From an uncultured Candidatus Berkelbacteria bacterium (GTDB lineage Bacteria > Patescibacteriota > UBA1384 > CAJBMM01), in contig CAJBMM010000015.1 of NCBI GenBank assembly GCA_903954185.1, positions 1-39,816 on the forward strand: a stretch of 39,816 nucleotides of DNA, read 5' to 3'. Shown in pieces: positions 15,554-28,661 of this stretch. The position numbers were made by a program, and so were the translations under genes. A model generated the notes under the pieces. It did no database searches. It had not been told where the DNA came from and saw nothing but the letters and a program-made list of their open reading frames with translations. Positions within the stretch are counted from its first letter, which is position 1. Every line of letters begins with the position of its first letter.

Positions 15554-15566
15554 GTTGAAAGAATTG

Positions 15567-17387
15567 ATGGAAAAACAAAGTATTAGAAACGTTGCTATCA
15601 TCGCTCATGTAGACCATGGTAAAACTACCTTGGTAGATTTTTTGTTAAAACAATCTCACACCTTTCGCGATAACGAAGCCGAAATGTCTCAAGATTTAAT
15701 TATGGACTCTAGCGATCAAGAGCGCGAACGTGGTATTACAATTTTAGCTAAGAATACCGCCGTTATTTATAAGGATACGAAAATAAATATAATTGATACT
15801 CCTGGGCATGCCGATTTTGGTGGTGAGGTTGAGCGAACCCTAAACATGGCAGATGGCGCACTATTAGTCATCGATGCTCAAGAAGGGCCAATGGCGCAAA
15901 CTAAATTTGTGCTTAAAAAAGCGCTAGATTTAGGCCTAAAAGTAATTGTCGTCATTAATAAAATTGACAAACCAAATGCTCGCATAGATACAGTTATTAG
16001 TCGCACACAAGATTTGTTTTTAGACTTAGCCACAGACGAAGCTCATTTAGACTTCCCTGTTTTTTACGCTATCGGGCGTGAGGGAAAATCTTGGCCAGAA
16101 TTACCAGAAAATATGAATGAGCGGGCAGATTTGATCCCAATTTTTGATGCAATTTTAGAGTATGTACCAGAGCCAACCGTAACTGATGGCGATTTTCAGA
16201 TGTTGGTCACCGCGCTAGATGCCGATTCATATAAAGGCACATACTCAATTGGTAGAATTAGCCGCGGAACGGCAAAACCAGGTTTGAATGTAACCGTTAT
16301 CGACACACTGAATCATCAAACAAGCGCTCGCATTGAAAAGGTTTTTGTTAACAGGGGATTAAAACGCGTTGAAACAGATATGGCACAAGCAGGAGATATT
16401 GTAGCTATAACTGGAATTAAGGGCATTAAAATTGGCGAAACAATTGCCGATAGTAACAATCCCGAAGCTTTGCCAACCATGGCTATAGAAGAACCAACTC
16501 TTAAGATGTCATTTTCGGCCAATACTTCTCCTTTTGCCGGCAGAGAAGGCAAATTTGTGACCAGTAGACAAATATTAGAACGTATTCAAAAAGAATTAGA
16601 AACAAACGTTTCAATGCGATTAAATATGGCAGACGACGGAACATTTTTAGTGTCTGGCAGAGGTGAACTTCACCTTTCGGTATTTATCGAAACATTGCGC
16701 CGCGAAGGATTTGAACTACAAGTAGGTAAGCCACAAATTATCACCAAAGATATTGATGGGGTAACATCAGAGCCAATTGAAGAATTAACAGTAGATGTTG
16801 CCAGTGAATTTGCTGGTGCGGTAACAAGTGAAATTAGCCGACGCCGTGGCATCATGCAATATCAAGAAGAGCAAGGCGATGGATCTACAAGTTTGTGTTT
16901 TCACATCACTACCCGAGGTTTGCTTGGTTTAAGAAATCAGTTATTGACTCTTTCTAAAGGAACAGCGGTTATTAACTCATTATTCTTGCATTATTCGCCC
17001 ATGGGCGCACCGATCACTAAAATGCGTCTTGGAGCACTTATGGCTTCACAAAGTGGCAAAGCCGTTACTTATGGTTTGGCCAACGCCCAAGAACGCGGTA
17101 TTACCTTTATTCCCGCCCAAACAGAGGTTTATGAGGGCATGGTTGTAGGTTTACATTTACGCGAACAAGATATTGAGATTAATGTTTGCAAAGAAAAACA
17201 GCTCACTAACGTGCGTGCATCTAGCTCCGATATTGCAGTTCAGTTAACCCCACCAACAATCTTTTCACTCGAACAATCTATCGATTTTTTAGAAGATGAC
17301 GAGCTATTAGAAGTCACTCCAAAATCGCTTCGAATACGCAAAAAACTACTAAACGCCACCGATCGCAACCGTGCCAGATCTAAATAA
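15567..17387 (+). CDS. typA: ribosome-associated GTPase TypA/BipA
   Basis: Translational GTPase of the EF-G superfamily acting on the 50S subunit in stress and ribosome assembly. From the ATG at 15567 it has 606 residues, the family length. G1 AHVDHGKTT, switch region RERGITI, G3 DTPGHADFGG and G4 NKIDKP are all intact in the first 135 residues, followed by domain 2, the EF-G-like domains III and V, and the TypA-specific C-terminal part (SMRLNMADDG, RGLLGLRNQLLT, ANAQERG). A TTG four codons upstream at 15555, with AGGA 7 nt before it, is an alternative start formed by the repeat end. Confidence 0.93.
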   Translation: MEKQSIRNVAIIAHVDHGKTTLVDFLLKQSHTFRDNEAEMSQDLIMDSSDQERERGITILAKNTAVIYKDTKINIIDTPGHADFGGEVERTLNMADGALLVIDAQEGPMAQTKFVLKKALDLGLKVIVVINKIDKPNARIDTVISRTQDLFLDLATDEAHLDFPVFYAIGREGKSWPELPENMNERADLIPIFDAILEYVPEPTVTDGDFQMLVTALDADSYKGTYSIGRISRGTAKPGLNVTVIDTLNHQTSARIEKVFVNRGLKRVETDMAQAGDIVAITGIKGIKIGETIADSNNPEALPTMAIEEPTLKMSFSANTSPFAGREGKFVTSRQILERIQKELETNVSMRLNMADDGTFLVSGRGELHLSVFIETLRREGFELQVGKPQIITKDIDGVTSEPIEELTVDVASEFAGAVTSEISRRRGIMQYQEEQGDGSTSLCFHITTRGLLGLRNQLLTLSKGTAVINSLFLHYSPMGAPITKMRLGALMASQSGKAVTYGLANAQERGITFIPAQTEVYEGMVVGLHLREQDIEINVCKEKQLTNVRASSSDIAVQLTPPTIFSLEQSIDFLEDDELLEVTPKSLRIRKKLLNATDRNRARSK

Positions 17388-17402: not shown

Positions 17403-17426
17403 GTAGGGGCGATTCACGAATCGCCC
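17403..17426 (+). repeat. GTAG-led REP-like hairpin next to the RAYT remnant
   Basis: GTAG followed by GGGCGATTC and GAATCGCCC, a 9-bp stem with a 2-nt centre. A second partial copy of the arm (ATGAATCGCCC) lies at 17438-17448, so the transposase remnant is flanked by an inverted REP pair. Confidence 0.8.
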
Positions 17427-17435
17427 GTCCATTAT

Positions 17436-17579
17436 TCATGAATCGCCCGCGCTATGTTTTAACGTCCAACGTAGTGGATTAGTCGTAATATATTCTCTAA
17501 TTTCTTTTAGATCTTTATCATTTCTAATAACATGATCAAAATAACTGCGCTGCCATACGAATCTATCAAATTTTGGCCA
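17436..17579 (-). pseudogene. C-terminal remnant of a REP-associated tyrosine transposase (RAYT)
   Basis: Translating the minus strand from 17579 gives 47 codons ending in TGA. It contains FVWQRSYFDHVIRND and then LKEIREYITTNPLRW, the highly characteristic C-terminal signature of IS200-like Y1 transposases of the RAYT group (W-Q-R-x-Y-x-D-H-x-I-R, then NPLRW). The N-terminal part with the HUH motif and catalytic Tyr is missing. The first 73 bases overlap, in another frame, the 3' end of the amidase gene. REP-like hairpins lie at its 3' side. It is a dead fragment. Confidence 0.85.
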
Positions 17580-18136
17580 ACGGAAGAGGAGATGAACAAA
17601 TCGTCTTTTTTATTCGTTAAAACACACATTTCGACTAGGACGGTTGGTACAAGGGAAAAAACCGAGGCGGTTAAATCTCCCCCTTGTTTGTGCCCAATAT
17701 AAGTATCTTCATCGGTTTTAACCGTATTTACCGGTAAATCGCTGCCTAACGATTGTTTTAATACTGCAGCAATTTTTATTGCCGCCAACCTACTACTTTG
17801 CTGTACAGCAACTGGCGGGCCGGTAACCCCTTCCTTTTCTATAAAGCAGTTTGGATAAAATAAAGTAACGCCGCTTTTGCCCCCAATATCGCAATGCAAC
17901 CTCAGTAATAGTACTGCATGCGCTTCATTGGCAATTTCGGCTCTTTGGCGATTTGTAACAAACTTATCTTCTGTATCTTTTGTAAGAACGCATTTAATAT
18001 TATCTTTTTTAAGCGCCTCAACAACATCGTTAGCAATAACCCAATTTAAATGAAGCTCCGATAAACCGTTAGCAGATGCGCCCTTTGATGTTTCAGAAGG
18101 ATGTCCTGGGTCTATACACACAACCGTGTGTGGCAT
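17507..18136 (-). CDS. N-acetylmuramoyl-L-alanine amidase (Amidase_3) with a replaced C-terminus
   Basis: Zinc amidase cleaving the MurNAc-L-Ala bond of peptidoglycan. 209 residues. Zinc ligands fit: His12 in IDPGHPSE, Glu27 in LSELHLN, His81 in LLLRLHCD; the catalytic Glu169 is in VLVEMCVLTN. No signal peptide is evident, so export is unexplained unless the upstream DsbA-like gene context implies a shared route. After about residue 182 the codons are shared, in a different frame, with a transposase remnant, so the last ~25 residues (GQNLIDSYGSAVIL onward) are not ancestral or have been overwritten. The start is ATG at 18136, 22 bp after the dsbA-like stop: a two-gene operon. Confidence 0.85.
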   Translation of the reverse strand: MPHTVVCIDPGHPSETSKGASANGLSELHLNWVIANDVVEALKKDNIKCVLTKDTEDKFVTNRQRAEIANEAHAVLLLRLHCDIGGKSGVTLFYPNCFIEKEGVTGPPVAVQQSSRLAAIKIAAVLKQSLGSDLPVNTVKTDEDTYIGHKQGGDLTASVFSLVPTVLVEMCVLTNKKDDLFISSSVGQNLIDSYGSAVILIMLLEMIKI

Positions 18137-20506: not shown

Positions 20507-20535
20507 CCAGACTAAAGTCTGTACTACATTTTTTT
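20507..20535 (+). terminator. possible terminator after cysS
   Basis: CAGACT-AA-AGTCTG hairpin, then TACTACA and a run of seven T. The gap between stem and T-run is long, so confidence is limited. Confidence 0.4.
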
Positions 20536-28634: not shown

Positions 28635-28661
28635 GTAGGGGCGAAACCCATGTGTTCACCC
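28635..28661 (+). repeat. GTAG-led REP-like hairpin, decayed
   Basis: GTAG followed by GGGCGAA and TTCACCC with one mismatch and a 9-nt loop. Third copy of the GTAG type in the window. Confidence 0.6.

Follow-up and report, generated by a model that had tools for sequence, protein, structure and literature searches.

The window, by which we mean the whole 39,816-nucleotide stretch of DNA analyzed here, very probably holds what is left of the 3′ part of a REP-RAYT unit (RAYT, REP-associated tyrosine transposase) that became fused to an N-acetylmuramoyl-L-alanine amidase (Amidase_3) gene through an insertion and then a deletion. The last ~20 residues of the amidase are, from their translation, RAYT DNA read in another frame. 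These results support the inference of the original prediction in substance, and we regard the site as a clear but modest, ordinary example of a known process, with out-of-frame reuse as its uncommon outcome. The site makes the death of a REP-RAYT unit readable, with the REP and one quarter of the gene left over and a neighboring gene given a new end. It also shows past REP-RAYT activity in a ~1-Mb genome belonging to a class that almost lacks this RAYT type.

The RAYT relic and its REP hairpin

The minus-strand frame through 17600 reads FVHLLFRWPKFDRFVWQRSYFDHVIRNDKDLKEIREYITTNPLRWTLKHSAGDS*, with its stop directly after RFVWQRSYFDHVIRNDKDLKEIREYITTNPLRWTLKHSAGDS. Within this frame, profile searches, tblastn, and alignment place the C-terminal ~38 codons of a RAYT gene (RFVWQRSYFDHVIRNDKDLKEIREYITTNPLRWTLKHS) at 17451..17564, and translation shows that the gene then closes, at 17436..17450, with the codons for AGDS and a TGA stop of its own, running into a REP arm. 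A RAYT fragment had been proposed for minus-strand positions 17579-17436; profiles confirmed the peptide, but RAYT homology begins only at ~17564, and the first codons of that span are amidase DNA.

The identity of the relic is directly supported by several searches. A leave-out profile, built from 39 related RAYT genes with the relic excluded, scored the relic at 66 bits when run against the window (E=1.8e-19; next window match, 0.57), compared to 10 bits for the best shuffled control. NCBIfam NF047646 (REP_Tyr_transpos) also matched it (E=7.8e-10, model positions 104-141 of 146), so that two profiles hit a fragment whose reading had been said to fall if none did. The suggested alignment to Pfam Y1_Tnp (PF01797) was less telling, reaching 13.2 bits under a cut-off of 23, because the relic spans just the last 28 positions of that profile. 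By tblastn, the relic was 64% identical (E=4e-8) to a RAYT gene on a Leptolinea plasmid, with further matches that included annotated transposases and RAYTs of Coriobacteriaceae and Clostridia. Among a sample of 380 genomes from the same phylum, 45 other genomes contained matches, the best at 63-66% identity.

Conserved in the relic are WQ and YI..NP, the latter being the motif with the catalytic tyrosine, and all four invariant alignment columns (motif WQ...IRN...YI..NP) are retained. A profile of relic-related RAYTs matched the solved E. coli TnpA_REP structure 4er8 (E=2.9e-11), and in the relic's EYITTNP the tyrosine aligned both to the invariant Tyr (Y170) and to the DYIYINP motif of 4er8, whose tyrosine is the catalytic one in E. 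coli. RAYTs of same-class genomes with "NPVR" ends matched the relic at just E 0.04-0.7, and we rejected them as its kin, since they belong to a different subfamily. We also set aside three Chloroflexus loci (L060-L062), where ITTNPLRW matched by chance in frames of 700-900 residues that otherwise lack the RAYT motif.

The truncation of the relic is likewise observed directly. It spans positions 136-173 of the 177 in our A1 profile, which includes the relic's own peptide, so that its A1 score is not independent. The RAYT part before profile position 136, which holds the HUH metal-binding motif, was absent from the window by profile search, the leave-out profile found no other RAYT pieces there, and the relic's open frame contains no ATG, GTG, or TTG. 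Given that it lacks both the HUH part and a start codon, we conclude that the relic is a 5′-truncated dead copy. As judged from the alignment, the N-terminal three-quarters of the gene are missing and the last quarter remains. The relic thus shares with the RAYT/TnpA_REP family (NF047646, PF01797, 4er8) the C-terminal WQ..Y(F/Y)DHVIRN...YI..NP and an adjacent GTAG hairpin, but, as a last quarter without HUH site and start codon, it is not an enzyme; it is a fragment that cannot act, rather than a working member of the family. We did not find the relic to be "ancient" or "decayed," as had been supposed: apart from its 5′ truncation its codons are unbroken, with no interruption of the frame ahead of the relic's stop, and nothing in it therefore indicates great age.

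The window is contig C15 of a draft genome that totals 998,031 bases over 43 contigs, with a completeness of 96.6%. Neither a Y1_Tnp search of this genome nor the A1 profile, which matched the relic only, detected another RAYT. The intact RAYT that the original prediction suggested seeking could still hide there, since contigs break inside repeat arrays (e.g., at the end of C23).

Beside the relic, on the plus strand at 17403..17426, lies a REP hairpin, GTAG-GGGCGATTC-AC-GAATCGCCC (in full, GTAGGGGCGATTCACGAATCGCCC), with its tag directed away from the relic. Both the hairpin and this orientation are direct observations. The hairpin lies where it had been predicted and is perfectly palindromic, its stem measuring 9 bp (17407-17415/17418-17426). 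The expected partial inverted arm is present too: a truncated second copy (ATTCATGAATCGCCCGCGC; strand unassigned), consisting of one arm and the loop, occupies 17434..17452, with the arm proper at 17434-17448, and pairs with 17407-17421. In GTAG REPs, a complementary palindrome comes after the GTAG head, and in REPtrons inverted REPs flank the RAYT gene, REPs often lying between convergent genes (PMC3733652; PMC2817692; PMC6006769). The hairpin, with its GTAG head, perfect palindrome, and loop within the accepted 2-4 bases, matches the REP architecture of PMC2817692 and PMC3733652. The site differs from REPtrons in keeping the 3′ REP (plus the partial copy) alone, with the 5′ half of the unit missing.

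Related RAYT genes show the same association: the 39 genes have 31 GTAG-type hairpins at distances of up to 300 bp, versus 4 in shuffled flanks. At locus L086 of genome G158, from the same phylum, an intact minus-strand RAYT has a REP (GTAGGGGCAATTCATG...AATTGCCCC) just past its stop, tag outward, and a second, inverted REP ahead of its start. The position and orientation of the REP at the relic equal the 3′ geometry of this intact unit, and the 24-mer of the L086 REP, GTAGGGGCAATTCATGAATTGCCC, has an exact copy at C8 (proS) of the genome to which the window belongs.

The amidase and its replaced tail

The amidase gene occupies 17507-18136 on the minus strand (209 codons); 22 bases separate it from the DsbA-like gene that precedes it. 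It is convergent with typA (BipA GTPase; 15555..17387, plus strand), which, with homologues aligning to query residue 608/610, is intact through its normal C-terminus. Translation bears out the claim that the amidase frame reads the same DNA as the relic out of phase, stopping at 17507.

Pfam PF01520 matched the amidase (E=5.9e-26) to residue 191 (17564), at profile position 164/174. Among the 400-odd genomes searched, only genome G010 contained a good homologue, to which the amidase is 46% identical up to Q188 (17573) and thereafter unrelated. Our comparison is therefore with this one good homologue and with the Pfam profile running to residue 191. Plasmid and phage matches stop by residue 185, and a DNA-level search of plasmids gave nothing of use. 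The divergence point is thus directly observed: homologue alignment and Pfam identify residues 1-188 (17573..18136, minus strand) as the ancestral part, while residues 189-209 and the TAA (17507..17572, minus strand) are essentially RAYT DNA in another frame. After residue 188, G010 ends in EKMVFALAKGIEHYLNTP and the window amidase in NLIDSYGSAVILIMLLEMIKI; the tail is not shared, in agreement with the predicted new C-terminus. Compared to Amidase_3 in general, the window amidase has the whole domain to position 164/174 and differs in its last ~20 residues, which are replaced, the native C-terminal segment being absent. The amidase also lacks the N-terminal membrane segment seen in the G010 homologue, its catalytic domain starting directly at 18136.

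In a four-member alignment, the amidase retains the invariant H12, E27, H81, and E169. A structure model made from four aligned sequences had a mean pLDDT of 73 and matched the amidase fold (E 1.9e-11), with Nostoc AmiC2 and mycobacterial Rv3717/Ami1 as its top matches among PDB amidases. The tail was modeled as a helix (185-207) at a pLDDT of ~60 or lower. In this model, the native terminal helix is replaced by an unrelated predicted helix, and an amidase with these conserved catalytic positions may still work.

It is possible, though unlikely, that the gene is instead a decaying pseudogene whose new tail is without consequence. The replaced tail would fit such decay, as would the missing N-terminal membrane segment or signal, unlike the G010 homologue, and the absence of the amidase from most same-class genomes, but the 209-codon frame is open, the four invariant residues are retained, and the model shows a normal amidase fold. 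Selection might alternatively have retained the fused tail as a new functional C-terminus, domesticating the out-of-frame reading. We consider this less likely still: a helix is predicted for the tail, at the place of the last helix of the native amidase, but the tail occurs in no second genome and its model confidence is low. Less probable again is the stronger proposal that the host amidase took up a C-terminal helix, overprinted on transposase DNA and fixed in a reduced genome, and has come to depend on it.

The fusion point and its probable history

Amidase homology extends to 17573 and RAYT homology starts between 17564 and 17558, which gives a fusion point interval of 17558..17573 on the minus strand. 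No more than 15 bases lie between the ends of the two homologies, as a fusion would predict. The original prediction held that a RAYT inserted at the 3′ end of the amidase gene, and RAYT DNA is indeed found there, but insertion alone would be insufficient, because one joint lacks both the end of the amidase and the start of the RAYT. The simplest account, we infer, is an insertion downstream of the amidase followed by one deletion.

A REP-RAYT unit would once have been located between the convergent typA and Amidase_3 genes. A later deletion would have taken the original end of the amidase and the first approximately three-quarters of the RAYT gene, so that amidase codon ~188-191 now runs on, in a different frame, into RAYT profile position ~136. 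The amidase would thus have come to end at 17507 in ~20 out-of-frame residues of RAYT DNA, while the RAYT frame, silent, would still run as far as its stop at 17436, next to the 3′ REP. Both this order of events and the singleness of the deletion are presumed. We found no close relative with an empty or intact site, and no close genome has an amidase at this place: G010 carries its homologue elsewhere, and the same-family genome G001 is without the amidase, its typA contig ending inside typA. The direction of events is therefore read from homology alone. Intragenic REPs are known to overlap or end coding regions (PMC3733652), and the site resembles these cases in that mobile REP-type DNA altered the end of a host reading frame; it differs in that out-of-frame transposase coding sequence, not the REP, supplies the new end.

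A misassembly at the REP repeat, which would mean that the relic does not adjoin the amidase or typA in the cell, is very unlikely. The assembly is a 43-contig draft with contigs that break in repeat arrays, as at the C23 end, but the fusion point at 17558-17573 is unrepeated in the genome and lies outside the REP, and a 20-24-bp repeat is short for misleading an assembler. A chance or convergent resemblance of the frame to RAYTs would fit the Pfam score, which alone is under the cut-off, but can be dismissed: the profile statistics (shuffled controls at 10 bits versus 66) and the tblastn and NCBIfam matches already refute it.

Related and other repeats in the genome

The GTAG hairpin pattern of the fusion site occurs at 5 places in its own genome, compared to 0 for a reversed control, with copies related to the 17403-17426 hairpin on C17, C19, C2, and C8; the head is GTAG in 4/5 and GAAG in 1/5. 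These 4-5 copies are fewer than in typical REP families. The C8 copy (L014; C8:9233-9256) lies in frame inside proS, where GTAGGGGCAATTCATGAATTGCCC is read as VGAIHELP. Solved ProRS sequences align without net length change, which speaks against a plain 8-codon insertion there; an insertion with compensating loss may be the explanation. The intact RAYT gene of G158 also contains an in-frame REP (L086:432-455), read within ISGAIHELPLHA.

A third GTAG hairpin family is represented in the window at 28635-28661 on the plus strand (GTAGGGGCGAAACCCATGTGTTCACCC), after an ABC-2 type permease-like gene, and related copies of the GTAGGGGCGGTACCCATGTGTCCGCCC type occur on C7, C10, C23, C27, and C30. More abundant is a REPIN-like family, GTAGAACA(C/G)ACTTTAGT(C/G)TGG, with 107 matches at <=3 mismatches and 0 for the reversed pattern. 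Its members form inverted pairs with GTAGCACAAGCTTTAGCTTGG and tandem arrays with a period of ~58 bp between housekeeping genes, especially on C23 (L164) and C27 (L165), and no RAYT was detected in the genome. Given so large a REPIN population without a detectable transposase, the persistence of repeats after transposase loss becomes testable in this ~1-Mb genome. The window itself contains one hairpin copy of this type, GTAGTACAGACTTTAGTCTGG, at 20507-20527 on the minus strand, just downstream of cysS.
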